From Lyngbya sp. CCAP 1446/10 (lineage in GTDB: Bacteria; Cyanobacteriota; Cyanobacteriia; Cyanobacteriales; Microcoleaceae): a stretch of DNA of 64,000 bases. The number at the start of each line of letters is the position of its first letter. Positions within the stretch are counted from its first letter, which is position 1. The stretch lies in contig NZ_JAIGNI010000001.1 of the NCBI RefSeq assembly GCF_026130175.1, positions 124,001 through 188,000 of the forward strand, written 5' to 3'. Shown piece by piece: positions 57,471 to 63,801 of this stretch. The translations under genes and the position numbers were made by a program. The notes below the pieces were generated by a model. That model ran no database searches. It saw only the letters and a program-made list of their open reading frames with translations, and was not told the origin of the DNA.

Positions 57471-58019
57471 TTAAGAACGAGCTGCGATCATTCCGGTTTG
57501 GCGTGCGTAGGCAAATAGCCCTCCGGCATCAATTACTGGCCCGACATCTCCTAAAGGCTTGAGGGAGTAAGTAACATTTAGAGTGTGGTTGATGATTTGA
57601 TCGCCCGCAAAGTCGATCGTCACTTCCTGGCCTGTGACAAATAAGTCGCAAAGTCGATCGACCGATTCGATTGGGTACAATTCGCCAGTAGCCGAGCAAT
57701 TGCGAAAGAAAATGCGCGCGTAAGACAAAGCCACCACCGCTTTGACACCCGCAGCCCCCAGAGCGATCGGAGCGTGTTCCCGCGAAGAACCGCAGCCAAA
57801 ATTTTCGCCGGCAATGATAATCGGATACCGGGTTTTCTGTTCGTCGGGCGCGATAAACTTGTCGTAGCGATCGGGTAAACCAATCATCGCATAACTGCCT
57901 AGTTTCTCGTACTCGTCCGGTTTCGAGGGAACCAGAGTCAGGTATTCGGCAGGGATAATTTGATCTGTATCGATGTTGTCATCTAAAACAAAAATTTGAC
58001 CGCTAATTACTTTGCCCAT
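57471..58019 (-). CDS. leuD: 3-isopropylmalate dehydratase small subunit
   Basis: LeuD with LeuC isomerises 2-isopropylmalate to 3-isopropylmalate in leucine synthesis. The 182-residue protein shows DDNIDTDQIIPAEYL at the start and GENFGCGSSREHAPIAL, the swivelling-domain signature, then ARIFFRNCSATGELYP. leuC is not in the window. The 182-residue length agrees with the archaeal/cyanobacterial-type small subunit. It is divergent from the gene at 58200. Confidence 0.95.
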   Translation of the reverse strand: MGKVISGQIFVLDDNIDTDQIIPAEYLTLVPSKPDEYEKLGSYAMIGLPDRYDKFIAPDEQKTRYPIIIAGENFGCGSSREHAPIALGAAGVKAVVALSYARIFFRNCSATGELYPIESVDRLCDLFVTGQEVTIDFAGDQIINHTLNVTYSLKPLGDVGPVIDAGGLFAYARQTGMIAARS

Positions 58020-58199
58020 AGTTTATTTCCTCTTGGCTTCTCAGATGCTGCCGTGATATTTTTATGTCGGATTGGTAATGCAAGATTTGCATTTGTCCAT
58101 TTTAACCGGGGAATGTCGGCGATAATCTGTATAGGCGAAAATCAGATCCGAGCATTTAGATTAACAGTTATACAGATTGCTAAGCATCAAGATATTTTT

Positions 58200-59072
58200 A
58201 TGGCGAATCCAGTAGATGACATTGCTCGACAAGCTCGCGAGGGATCGGTTTCCTCAATTATTCAAATTCTGAACGATGAACTGGCACAGGCAGGCGTCAG
58301 GGCTAGAGCCGTGTTTGCCGATGGGGTGCTGCAACTACTGTGCGAAGCTGCAACATCCCAACTGCTCGAACAGTCTAGTTTGGTCGATCGAGTTCGAGAA
58401 ATTTTGGAAGGCCTCTCGCCCCGCAATATTCGCCGAGTCAACATCAACAGCCGGCTGGTGCGAGAACACCAACTGCTGTGGCTCGAAGAAATTAGCCACG
58501 ATCCAGAAAATCAATTACTGTGGTCTCAAGAAATTAAACTCAAAAAGCCGAATTTGTTCAAGCGTTTGGCCGCCGCCCATCACGAACGCCAAGCTCAAGG
58601 CAAGCGGGCTTTGCCGAGAATCGCTGCACCTCGATCAATGCGGCAACCGCGACCATTTCAGCGCAGTATCGTCGGCGGCATCAGCTTGACCGTGTTGTTG
58701 CTCGCTGCGGCGGCCGCCATCTACAAAGGACTCAATTCTCAAGTGCCAAACAGCACAACAGCCACCAGCCAAGCAGTTGCCAGTGCCACTCCCTTGGCAA
58801 CGACACCTGCTGGGAAAACTTTTAAAGAAAATGCTAATTCTGCTGTTGACCCTTTTGGACAAGCAGTACGAGTGGCCCAGCAAGCAGCCACCGACGGCAA
58901 AACGGCTCAATCTCGCGAAAATTGGTTAGTAGTAGCAACTAAGTGGCAGCAAGCTTCGGATTTGATGGCTGCCGTGTCCCCGAATCATCCCCGCTATGCA
59001 ACGGCTGTCAACCGGACGGCACTTTACCGCCAAAATAGCGATAAAGCCCAACAGGAAGCACAAAATAAGTAG
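58200..59072 (+). CDS. Conserved cyanobacterial membrane protein, unknown function
   Basis: The 290-residue protein starts with an about 150-residue cytosolic region (VDDIARQAREGSVSSIIQILNDELAQ, then RVREILEGLSPRNIRRVNINSRLV), a single membrane helix at residues 157-175, and a 115-residue C-terminal part with Gln/Asn-rich low-complexity sequence that may be periplasmic. No catalytic motif is visible. The frame opens at 57996 across the leuD start, so the ATG at 58200 is chosen. I do not recognise the family beyond cyanobacterial conservation. It stands alone before a 528-bp gap. Confidence 0.72.
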   Translation: MANPVDDIARQAREGSVSSIIQILNDELAQAGVRARAVFADGVLQLLCEAATSQLLEQSSLVDRVREILEGLSPRNIRRVNINSRLVREHQLLWLEEISHDPENQLLWSQEIKLKKPNLFKRLAAAHHERQAQGKRALPRIAAPRSMRQPRPFQRSIVGGISLTVLLLAAAAAIYKGLNSQVPNSTTATSQAVASATPLATTPAGKTFKENANSAVDPFGQAVRVAQQAATDGKTAQSRENWLVVATKWQQASDLMAAVSPNHPRYATAVNRTALYRQNSDKAQQEAQNK

Positions 59073-59600: not shown

Positions 59601-61823
59601 ATGATCGATTACCAGGGAAATCAAGACTTTACTTCGATCGACCGATCGCCGTCAGAGTCTTGCACTTTGCATCTACCACAAATCGCAGAACCAGTATCAG
59701 TCCAAAAATTTCTGGATCGTCTTATGCAGTACCAAGTCGATCCTGCCCTTCTGGGGCAGCAAATTTACCAAATTCTCGCGACCAACATCGATCGAGAAAT
59801 CCTGCTGCTACAAATAGCCAATACTTTGGGGGTTGCTTGTGGGGCAGATTTCTGTTTGGTTGCTGCTGTAGCTGACCAGAAAGTAGTAATTCCGAATGCT
59901 TGCTGGCTTCAGAGGAGCGATCGACCAAACGCTGCGGACGCAACTCAAACACCCGAATACTCCCAAAGCACAAAATTAGCATCGTCTAGCATATCGCTCG
60001 AACATCCTGTCCTGGTAAACGTGCTAGCAGACGGTGAGATAGTGGCCATCTCCGACTATCTTGAGATTTCGGCAGCTTCATCGCCCAATTCCCCTGTGAC
60101 ACCGCTGCCTTGTCGGGCAATTTTGGCAGCGCCTGCGCGATTTGGAGGGGCTGTAAATGGGATGATCGTTCTTGGTAAGTCGCAACCTCATGAGTGGTCA
60201 GCAGCCGATCGCCAGCGCCTAGAAGCAGCATTAGAGGCGATCGGCATCGCGATTGCTGACATTCAAAAAACTCAAGAAATTGCCAGTTTAAACCAACAGT
60301 TACAACGACAAGCGAAATACAAAAATCTCCTCGGCAGAGTCGCTGCCGCGATCGACACGAATTCAGAAGTCGATCAAATTTTGCAGCGAGTAATTGAAAA
60401 AACCGCCGATACCCTGGAAGTAGATAGAGGTCAAATCCTGCTGTTGAAATATACAGACCCTCTATTTAAAACTCGCTCTCCCAATCAAACGCCACAAGCC
60501 AAGGTCGAATTAGTTTGCGAATCCAGTCAGAAAAAAGACCTAAATAAACCAGCAATAGAACCAAGCAATGCGGGCAAAAAAAGCTCGACATCAAAAACCA
60601 AAACCAAGGAAAAAACAGCTAATTCCAAATCCACAACACCAAGCTCACAATCAAATCATTTCCCTGCTTTTTGGATGTCGGAGTCTAGTTTGTGCCAGGA
60701 AGCATTCAACCGGGTTCCCCAATCCCTTGCGATTGCCGACGCCCGCGAACTGCTGGCGCAACAACCAGAACACATCAGACAAATTTTGAAACTACAGGAT
60801 ATCAGTGCCCTTTTGTTGGTTCCCCTAGTAGGGACAAGCGGACAAGGCACGGTATTGGGATTCTTGGTTTTGCAGCACTCATCGTCCCGGATCTGGCAAG
60901 TTGAAGAATTAGAGGTTGTAGAATTAATCGCCGCTCAATTGAGTACGGCGATCATCCAAACTCAAACTCTCAAGCAAGTACAAACTCTTGTCGAAAACCG
61001 AACTGCTCAGTTAAAGCACAGTCTTGACGTACAGGCAATATTGTACGAACAATCTCGCAAACAAGTAGAGCAACTGCAACGGTTAAATCAGCTCAAAGAT
61101 GAATTTCTTGCTGCCGCGAGCGACCAGTTGCAACATCCTCTAACGAAGATCAAGATAGTTGTTGAACTCTTTCGGAAATGGGAATTATTATCGCCGGCGC
61201 AGATAACTCTGTATTTGGATATTCTGGATCAGGAATGTAATCAGGAAATCAATCTGATTAAGGATTTGCTGAAGCTAAAAGAATTAGATTCTCAGCAAAC
61301 GCCTATGTCTCGCATCAGGATTGACCTCAAGCCTTTAATTCAGGATTTGGCTAAAGATTTTAACAAAAAATGGGCGGATCAAGGATTAAGTCTGGTGGTG
61401 AATTTACCGGAGCGCTCGTTGTGGTCCGAAACCAATTTCGATAGCTTGAATCGAATTCTGCTGGAATTGCTGACGAATGCTGGCAATTTCTCGGATGATG
61501 GGACTGCGGTAGTTTTGGATGTGTCTGAAGCAAGCAACCTTATTTTCTTGAGCGTCTCTAATTGCGGGCGCGGTATTTCTGATGATGATTTACCACACAT
61601 CTTTGACAGGTTCCGCCGCGGCACTGGTGTGACTGACCAAAGTGGTATTCGGGGTACTGGTTTGGGTCTGGCTCTGGTAAAGAGCTTAGTACAGCACTTG
61701 AATGGTAATATTGATGTTTCTAGCAGTCCGTCAGAAAATTCTGAAACTGCTGATCAGTGGCGCACCTGTTTTACTCTGACTCTGCCCCAATTTGCAGCAG
61801 ATGTCTCTAATCGGGAAGAATAG
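59601..61823 (+). CDS. GAF-domain sensor histidine kinase with atypical H-box
   Basis: A 740-residue soluble protein: GAF-like domain 1 (about 57-222), coiled coil, GAF-like domain 2 (about 255-455, interrupted by a Ser/Lys/Thr-rich insert at 310-352), coiled coil (455-500), HisKA-like helix pair (497-565) and HATPase (about 605-732). In the H-box EFLAAASDQLQHPLTKI the usual phospho-His position (508) is Asp, and a His stands four residues later (512). The HATPase keeps N626 and the G2 box GTGLGL (685-690) but the G1 box is NCGRG instead of DxGxG. It may be a pseudokinase or use H512. No response-regulator gene is adjacent. Confidence 0.87.
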   Translation: MIDYQGNQDFTSIDRSPSESCTLHLPQIAEPVSVQKFLDRLMQYQVDPALLGQQIYQILATNIDREILLLQIANTLGVACGADFCLVAAVADQKVVIPNACWLQRSDRPNAADATQTPEYSQSTKLASSSISLEHPVLVNVLADGEIVAISDYLEISAASSPNSPVTPLPCRAILAAPARFGGAVNGMIVLGKSQPHEWSAADRQRLEAALEAIGIAIADIQKTQEIASLNQQLQRQAKYKNLLGRVAAAIDTNSEVDQILQRVIEKTADTLEVDRGQILLLKYTDPLFKTRSPNQTPQAKVELVCESSQKKDLNKPAIEPSNAGKKSSTSKTKTKEKTANSKSTTPSSQSNHFPAFWMSESSLCQEAFNRVPQSLAIADARELLAQQPEHIRQILKLQDISALLLVPLVGTSGQGTVLGFLVLQHSSSRIWQVEELEVVELIAAQLSTAIIQTQTLKQVQTLVENRTAQLKHSLDVQAILYEQSRKQVEQLQRLNQLKDEFLAAASDQLQHPLTKIKIVVELFRKWELLSPAQITLYLDILDQECNQEINLIKDLLKLKELDSQQTPMSRIRIDLKPLIQDLAKDFNKKWADQGLSLVVNLPERSLWSETNFDSLNRILLELLTNAGNFSDDGTAVVLDVSEASNLIFLSVSNCGRGISDDDLPHIFDRFRRGTGVTDQSGIRGTGLGLALVKSLVQHLNGNIDVSSSPSENSETADQWRTCFTLTLPQFAADVSNREE

Positions 61824-62121: not shown

Positions 62122-63801
62122 ATGCTCACAAAAGCTGCACCGAAACTCCTGCGTTGGCAACGTTCTAAATATTCGCCGCTGGCACGACAAATAGACGTTT
62201 TTGCTGCGACGGCAAAGTTTATGTTTTTTTTGTGGTGGGATGGACTGCTGCAAAATAATTCTGCTCAAACTAGAAGAATTCGCGCCCATTGGTTGGTGAA
62301 TACTTTGCTGGATTTAGGCCCGACTTTTATTAAAATCGGGCAGTCTCTCTCGACTCGCGCGGATTTGCTGCCGCTGGAGTACGTCAAGGAGTTGGAACAG
62401 TTGCAGGATCGGGTTCCTGAGTTTAGTTCCGAAGAGGCGATCGCCCTTGTAGAATCAGAGTTAGGCAAGGATATTTATGCTTTGTACCGCGATTTTGACC
62501 CGTTGCCGATCGCTGCTGCGAGTCTGGGACAGGTACACAAAGCGAGGCTGCACACCGGGGAAGATGTGATTGTCAAGGTGCAGCGCCCGGGTTTAGAAAG
62601 TTTATTTAATTTGGATGTGAAGGCGGTGCGGCAAGTGATGCGTTTTTGCGATCGCCATTTGCCTTGGACGCGCAAGTACGACCTAGAATCTATTTATCAC
62701 GAGTTTTTTAAGATTTTATATCAAGAAATCGACTATGTGCAAGAAGGGAAAAATTCCGATCGCTTTAGCCATAATTTTCAGGAATTCCCTCAAATTATTG
62801 TCCCGAAAGTTTACTGGCAATACACGACACAAAAAGTGCTGACTTTAGAATATGTTCCCGGTATTAAAGTAGATGATAGGATTAGCTTAGAGGCGATTGG
62901 AGTAGATATTACGAAGCTCAATCAACTCGGAATTTCCTGTTACTTGAAGCAGTTGTTAATTGATGGTTTTTTTCAAGCTGACCCGCATCCGGGAAATTTA
63001 GCGGTGACAGAAGATGGCAGCTTAATTTTTTATGATTTCGGGATGATGGCAGAGGTGAAGTCTTTGGCTAAAGACGAAATGGTCAAGACTTTTTTTGCTG
63101 TGCTGAGAAAGGATACCGATCAGGTACTCGATACTTTAATTACGATCGGCTTAGTTGAGCCGATGCCGGATATGATGCCGGTGCGGAGACTGATTGCTTT
63201 TCTGTTGGATAAGTTTATTGATAAGCCGATCGACTTTCAAGCTTTTAATGAAATCAAGAACGAACTGTACATCATGTTCGAGCAACAACCGTTTCGCTTG
63301 CCTGCACAAATGATGTTTATTGTCAAGTCGCTGACGACTCTGGACGGCATTGCGAGAACTCTCGATCCTAACTACAATTTCCTAGTATGCGCTCAGCCTT
63401 TTGTGAAGACCATTGCGGTAAGTAAAGGACGGAAAAATGCGATCGGAGAATTGGCTCTTCAAGCGCGAAATTTCATCACCTACAAGTTGCAGCAGCCGAG
63501 CAAATCGCAAGTTTTCCTGAAGCGTTTGGAGCAGCGGATTGAAGATGGCGAGCTGCAAATTCGCGTCCGTAACATGGAGAGCGATCGCGCCCTGAAACGG
63601 ATTAATTTAGCCTTAAAAACTCTGATTTTTGCCTGTATGACTGGTTTTGGGGTACTGACGGGTGCAGTGCTGCTGGTGGGCGGATATCAAACGGGGGCGA
63701 TCGTAGCTTTTGCTGTTGCCGGATGTGGTGGCTTGTTTGTGCTGCGTTCTTTGTTAGATTTGTTGCTGAGGGAAAAACTCGATCGAATAGCCGAAAAATA
63801 A
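62122..63801 (+). CDS. ABC1/UbiB/AarF-family kinase-like protein
   Basis: A 559-residue member of the UbiB/ABC1 (ADCK) atypical-kinase family, which supports quinone biosynthesis and, in cyanobacteria and chloroplasts, thylakoid prenylquinone homeostasis. Hallmarks are visible: KIGQSLSTRADLLPLEYVKELEQLQD (the family KxGQ motif), an Ala-rich nucleotide loop AAASLGQVHKA, the lysine in DVIVKVQRPG, the E-x-D in YQEIDYVQEG, and the catalytic ADPHPGNL with DFGMM. Two C-terminal membrane helices (about 495-545) anchor it. It is complete, and the start ATG at 62122 fits the family N-terminus. Confidence 0.93.
   Translation: MLTKAAPKLLRWQRSKYSPLARQIDVFAATAKFMFFLWWDGLLQNNSAQTRRIRAHWLVNTLLDLGPTFIKIGQSLSTRADLLPLEYVKELEQLQDRVPEFSSEEAIALVESELGKDIYALYRDFDPLPIAAASLGQVHKARLHTGEDVIVKVQRPGLESLFNLDVKAVRQVMRFCDRHLPWTRKYDLESIYHEFFKILYQEIDYVQEGKNSDRFSHNFQEFPQIIVPKVYWQYTTQKVLTLEYVPGIKVDDRISLEAIGVDITKLNQLGISCYLKQLLIDGFFQADPHPGNLAVTEDGSLIFYDFGMMAEVKSLAKDEMVKTFFAVLRKDTDQVLDTLITIGLVEPMPDMMPVRRLIAFLLDKFIDKPIDFQAFNEIKNELYIMFEQQPFRLPAQMMFIVKSLTTLDGIARTLDPNYNFLVCAQPFVKTIAVSKGRKNAIGELALQARNFITYKLQQPSKSQVFLKRLEQRIEDGELQIRVRNMESDRALKRINLALKTLIFACMTGFGVLTGAVLLVGGYQTGAIVAFAVAGCGGLFVLRSLLDLLLREKLDRIAEK

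Follow-up and report, generated by a model that had tools for sequence, protein, structure and literature searches.

Pseudo-histidine kinases are already known. DivL of Caulobacter (4q20) carries Tyr550 in place of the phospho-accepting His and is described as having no kinase or phosphatase activity and as binding a phosphorylated regulator (PMC4211667). CSK, a GAF sensor kinase, is described as coming from cyanobacteria and as having had its phospho-His replaced more than once, by Tyr in green algae and by Glu in plants (PMC2677595), and as retaining nucleotide binding (PMC5054060). A ChrS pseudokinase variant of Corynebacterium is presented as inactive and as a likely modulator of an active paralogue, which likens it to our reading of the protein studied here, although its lesion is a laboratory-evolved CA frameshift with no conserved H-box change (PMC9491836).

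The protein studied here, WIN, is encoded in the window, the whole 64,000-nucleotide stretch of DNA that we analysed. Like DivL it has a HisKA-HATPase fold with the phospho-His replaced, and DivL matches the WIN family profile with an E-value of 3.5e-24 and the structure by Foldseek at TMt 0.71-0.79. Unlike DivL, which combines Tyr with PAS domains, WIN has Asp at the His position, two GAF domains and no known DivK-like partner; it thus shows neither the Tyr nor the PAS input that defines DivL. The WIN family resembles CSK in being a GAF sensor kinase with repeated replacement of the phospho-His, but cyanobacterial Hik2 keeps its His, whereas in the WIN family the replacement occurred within cyanobacteria and is always Asp. 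Hik2 and CSK are further marked by a GAF Cys that ligates a [3Fe-4S] cluster; WIN has two GAF domains and a conserved GAF Cys, Cys85. The closest solved core belongs to the WalK/YycG-type HisKA kinases (4u7n, 5c93), at 27-28% identity and, for the best chains against the AF2 model of WIN, a Foldseek TMt of 0.86-0.88. WalK/YycG-type kinases are membrane sensors, and unlike WIN, 4u7n and 5c93 have S-H-E-L-R-T-P-L and a G1 Asp. Searches of open PMC papers listed no title or start of abstract on the WIN family or on an Asp-type H-box, and repeated Asp conversion within one orthologous family was not encountered in them. What is striking here, next to DivL and CSK, is the convergence on Asp.

The window protein and its H-box

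WIN is encoded by an uninterrupted ATG-start reading frame. Its features and those of its neighbours are as follows.

57996..59072, + strand: upstream co-directional ORF, 358 aa, without a Pfam match (19 of the 80 named loci have it upstream)
59601..61823, + strand: GAF-GAF-HisKA-HATPase_c protein, 740 aa, Asp-type (probable pseudo-histidine kinase); full-length orthologues exist
59802..60257, + strand: GAF domain 1 (aa 68-219; Pfam GAF_2), with near-invariant Cys85 at 59853-59855
60369..60953, + strand: GAF domain 2 (aa 257-451; Pfam GAF), with conserved Cys365 at 60693-60695
61095..61292, + strand: HisKA / DHp domain (aa 499-564; Pfam, AF2 helices)
61119..61142, + strand: degenerate H-box S-D-Q-L-Q-H-P-L (aa 507-514; motif letters, 4u7n alignment)
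61122..61124, + strand: Asp508 codon GAC, at the phospho-His position (codon read, 4u7n alignment)
61134..61136, + strand: His512 codon CAT, at the +4 position (4u7n alignment), described as the phosphatase Thr/Asn position (PMC3510030)
61440..61787, + strand: HATPase_c / CA domain (aa 614-729; Pfam), N-box and G2 box retained
61560..61562, + strand: Asn654 codon AAT, at the G1-box position, Asn family-wide (138 of 140 aligned rows)
62122..63801, + strand: UbiB/ABC1 atypical kinase gene (PF03109, 1.8e-82), conserved downstream co-directional neighbour (neighbour survey)

The Pfam hits to the 740-aa protein (two GAF, HisKA at 30.7 bits against a cut-off of 26.9, and HATPase_c) all exceed their cut-offs, and the domain pair of an active sensor histidine kinase, HisKA with HATPase_c, is present; among the best 25 NCBIfam models listed, none was above cut-off. 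The AF2 model (mean pLDDT 78.7) has helices at 434-525 and 532-563 and a CA fold, with only moderate confidence in the DHp part (pLDDT 60-69 over about 501-570). A promoter and terminator scan gave nothing better than shuffles.

In an alignment with 4u7n, an ATP-bound kinase, the phospho-His is matched by Asp508, Glu+1 by Gln509, Thr+4 by His512 and the G1 Asp by Asn654. The letters and this alignment agree on three substitutions that the first-pass annotation had read from the DNA: Asp508 for the phospho-His (S507-D508-Q509-L510-Q511-H512-P513-L514), His512 where Thr is usual, and Asn654 for Asp in the G1 box. Its further statement that N626 and the G2 box are retained is borne out by the motif letters, with the pocket motifs at their expected places (N626 in the N-box, N654-C-G-R-G in G1 and GTGLG from 685 in G2). 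We add two departures: Glu+1 is also gone, with Gln509 instead, and the N-box Lys is replaced by Asn629, which could weaken ATP binding by the window protein.

In HisKA proteins an acidic residue at +1 is described as needed for kinase activity and Thr or Asn at +4 for phosphatase activity (PMC3510030). WIN has Asp508 rather than a phospho-accepting His, Gln509 rather than an acidic +1, and His512 rather than the Thr or Asn at +4 that some other Asp-type lineages do have. As Glu+1 and Thr/Asn+4 are both gone, neither classical two-component activity is expected of the window protein; Asp-types with Thr or Asn at +4 could remain phosphatases. The phospho-His is thus missing while the DHp-CA fold and most of the pocket motifs are kept, as judged from sequence, the AF2 model and Foldseek, and we consider WIN to be probably a pseudo-histidine kinase with a retained ATP pocket and an output through protein contact.

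His-type and Asp-type orthologues

We refer to fetched loci by L numbers, to genomes by G numbers and to families within the order by f numbers, f33 being the heterocystous clade. A search of 59 related genomes found matches in every one, with clear orthologues within the genus, most of which have SHELRTPL as their H-box. L152, from a sister species and a different assembly, has SDQLQHPL as WIN does, in DNA that is 93% identical over 3.6 kb, and G009, of the same genus as WIN, has SDALRNPL. The identical motif in L152 rules out a sequencing error or a mutation of one strain. The first-pass annotation had looked to orthologues with a normal H-box as the sign of a strain-specific mutation: the canonical H-box was indeed found in most congeners, but the strain-specific reading did not survive, the Asp motif being common to L152 and recurring across the order.

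The Asp-type H-box pattern (D-x-F, five residues, D-x-L/F-x-x-P-L/F) was scanned over 388 genomes of the order, and the Asp form appeared in f33 (SDRLRYPL), f32 (SDQLRNPL), f13 (SDALKTPL), f11, f25, f27, f10, f18 and f28. The Asp-form proteins of these families are homologous to WIN over most of its length; those of f13 are short and align chiefly from GAF2 onward. The sole other sensor-kinase-like Asp match noticed among the matches listed was L099 (G235), a distant paralogue at 27% identity that has SDQLRTPL, with Asp at the His position and Thr+4 kept. When Asn or Tyr was sought at this position, with a similar pattern that also called for a preceding Lys, the 388 genomes yielded no member of the WIN family; they yielded six kinase-like places, which by their letters are apparently other kinases with Glu+1 and Thr+4 kept. 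Among these, G090, G108 and G124 (f4, g43), three within one genus, and G271 (f14) have Tyr at the phospho-His position (S-Y-E-L-R/K-T-P), a DivL-like replacement in an apparently unrelated kinase.

After near-copies and one short row were dropped, 167 aligned rows became 140, comprising 64 His-type and 76 Asp-type rows, a set in which Asp-types are over-represented as part of it was fetched by the Asp-specific pattern. Every His-type row reads H-E-x-x-T. The Asp-type rows have R (52), A (12), Q (6), E (4), N (1) or S (1) at +1, so that Glu+1 is missing in 72 of 76 and kept in 64 of 64 His-types, and Y (47), T (11), H (9), N (6), L (2) or C (1) at +4. N626 is retained in all 140 rows and the G2 residues G685, G687, L688, G689 and L690 in all 76 Asp-types. 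The N-box Lys is invariant among the 64 His-types and present in 63 of the 76 Asp-types; Asn, as in the window protein, takes its place in 1 of the 76. At G1, all 64 His-types and 74 of the 76 Asp-types have Asn; being common to canonical His-types, this residue is ruled out as a mark of inactivity. Of the rows with a residue at the Cys85 column of GAF1, 57 of 59 His-types and all 62 Asp-types have the Cys; for Cys365 of GAF2 the figures are 52 of 63 His-types and 57 of 75 Asp-types.

These counts bear on whether the phosphorylation site has instead shifted by one helical turn, to His512 or, in the heterocystous clade, to Tyr, leaving the protein a kinase. Nine of the 76 Asp-type rows have His at +4, and none of the 64 His-type rows does. 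It is spread over several lineages, the +4-His label changing 6 times on the kinase tree, and Thr to His requires two base changes, which makes relaxed drift an unlikely source of it. Yet some Asp-types have N, L or C at +4 and hence no such acceptor, most lack the Glu+1 on which kinase activity depends, and an independent-pairs test on +4 was not significant, with too few pairs (5; median p 0.5). We regard a moved site as very unlikely. Where the first-pass annotation offered either a pseudokinase or a site moved to H512, the pseudokinase half is thus the one strengthened, by loss of His and Glu+1 with pocket motifs under purifying selection; H512 fails as a general mechanism, +4 being Y, H, N, T, L or C, and could at most apply to the lineages with His at +4.

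Activity of a Ser/Thr type, as proposed for plant CSK, has a slim chance of applying here. In CSK the His is reported as replaced by Tyr or Glu, with Ser188 phosphorylated in Arabidopsis, and the two losses, of the His and of the response regulator, are said to be correlated (PMC2677595, PMC6949291); one study, as described, found no autophosphorylation of recombinant Arabidopsis CSK (PMC5054060). The CA motifs of the WIN family are otherwise unchanged, save for a shortened lid in the heterocystous clade. There the ATP lid (aa 677-683, window 61629-61649) is about 3 residues shorter, and a conserved R-W-x-P precedes GTGLGL.

WIN might also pair with a canonical kinase paralogue and serve as the inactive subunit of the heterodimer. 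Its DHp helices are retained in the AF2 model, and there is precedent in inactive ChrS, proposed to act with HrrS, native ChrS and HrrS being reported to heterodimerise (PMC9491836). Five genomes checked, however, have one family member each and no close His-type sister, the next matches being at most 40% identical and mostly confined to the kinase core, and this leaves the heterodimer only a slight chance of being right.

Recurrence and selection

We built trees of the 'quick' or FastTree kind. The full-length tree, with H-box columns removed, holds 102 of the 140 deduplicated rows (L080 was dropped as a near-duplicate and L048 as too short) and shows 7 H/D changes, 6 of them forced by starred branches. 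The kinase-only tree shows 7 changes (5 forced) and the N-terminal tree 8 (7 forced); both omit L032, L035, L042, L043, L044 and L049, which include four long end branches flagged in the full-length tree, and add five congeners. His would accordingly have turned into Asp about 5-7 times in cyanobacteria if His is ancestral, a direction taken from the canonical motif, with no outgroup.

One of these conversions spans the heterocystous cyanobacteria. By a hand count among the matches listed, the Asp form is present in at least 61 of 71 f33 genomes, on contigs that include Nostoc, Calothrix, Anabaena and Fischerella, and BLASTP found a family member in all 18 of the longer stretches taken from f33 genomes. 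A search of the other 10 f33 genomes with an f33 orthologue gave no intact orthologue, only paralogue-level matches apart from a remnant in G091. This remnant (L181, G091:C1:4624359-4624601) is an 81-residue piece of the family, 75% identical, in a heterocystous genome otherwise without the family. In G003:C320 (L025/L050) an in-frame stop splits the orthologue into frames of 502 and 288 aa.

In the kinase-only tree WIN and L152 fall within the genus, beside the His-types L005 and L010 (98*), which rules out acquisition of the kinase domain from a foreign Asp-type protein. The GAF and kinase parts of WIN have different nearest congeners, and recombination at the WIN locus within the genus is therefore likely, going by these sequence affinities. 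Mosaic alleles are seen within the genus: compared with L002, WIN is near in GAF1 (dS 0.32) and far in DHp (dS 1.6), and L005 gives the opposite.

The whole protein is under purifying selection. Between WIN and L152, dN/dS is 0.46 overall and the DHp protein is identical (dN = 0); the His-type pair L002-L003, at similar distance, gives 0.44, and seven heterocystous Asp-type pairs give 0.10-0.15. The CA domain of WIN and L152 taken alone gives 1.26 on very few changes (dN 0.027, dS 0.021), which does not support strong CA-domain constraint for this pair. A decaying gene, with the Asp substitution a step toward loss, might be suspected from the lack of an intact copy in 10 of the 71 f33 genomes and from the copy split by a stop in G003. 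We consider it very improbable, given the intact 740-aa ORF, the overall dN/dS below 1, the DHp protein identical in the sister species and the maintenance of the Asp state across heterocystous genera.

Why Asp should recur is a separate matter. Asp is, by arithmetic, 1 of 8 non-synonymous single-base outcomes from a His codon, so its recurrence suggests selection for that residue. Asp508 might itself be active, either as a fixed negative charge mimicking phospho-His or as an acyl-phosphate acceptor. Every replacement seen in the family is Asp: the rows fetched without the Asp pattern have only His or Asp (43 His and 4 Asp of 47; 35 His and 45 Asp of 80, the two sets overlapping in places), and the Asn/Tyr pattern found no family member in the 388 genomes, Asp, Asn and Tyr being the residues that the pattern searches covered. 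We know of no HisKA protein phosphorylated on Asp at the phospho-His position; Asp is a weak mimic of phospho-His, and loss of Glu+1 is ill-suited to retained transfer chemistry. An active Asp508 is thus unlikely in our view. Also unlikely, if slightly less so, is the broader proposal that Asp at this position is positively selected and functional in itself, as phospho-His mimic or Asp phospho-acceptor, within a phosphotransfer-free module beside quinone-type genes that arose 5-7 times in cyanobacteria.

Gene neighbours and a proposed contact-based model

The gene order around the family is conserved. Flanking sequence was available for 61 deduplicated His-type rows, all but three of them, and for 75 Asp-type rows. 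The co-directional gene that follows is UbiB/ABC1 in 48 of these His-types and 23 of these Asp-types, START/COQ10-like (PF03364) in 5 and 47, and another gene in 8 and 5. The 57996-59072 ORF is a recurrent upstream neighbour outside the heterocystous clade. The COQ8/UbiB and COQ10 classes are linked to quinone or lipid handling, and the UbiB/ABC1 or START adjacency may mark a candidate functional link, gene order alone being no proof of function. Among the recurrent neighbours read or scanned, none was recognised as an adjoining response regulator gene, which says little because orphan kinases are frequent in cyanobacteria.

The reading of WIN as a pseudo-histidine kinase draws directly on loss of His and Glu+1, on the recurrence of that loss, on the retained pocket motifs, on selection over the whole protein and on the conserved neighbours. 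Under it, a DHp domain without its His would no longer allow phosphoryl transfer from ATP onto His, and autophosphorylation would be lost. The GAF pair, with Cys85 and Cys365, is plausibly redox- or ligand-responsive and would set the conformation of the DHp-CA dimer; redox or quinone input by this route is a reasonable guess. The dimer, to judge from its kept motifs, would still bind ATP and serve as a conformational reporter, read through protein-protein contact without phosphotransfer. A candidate partner is the adjacent UbiB/ABC1 protein or, in heterocystous species, the COQ10-like START protein; a response regulator, as for DivL, or an active kinase are other candidates.

Pseudo-histidine kinases have hitherto been scattered cases; here the same His-to-Asp swap recurs in one orthologous family, with canonical sister proteins available for comparison and one conversion that spans the heterocystous cyanobacteria. 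The recurrent UbiB/ABC1 or COQ10-like START neighbour offers a concrete, testable candidate partner. The family would thereby provide a natural experiment in how a two-component sensor drops phosphotransfer yet keeps a function, and in why the replacement is Asp.
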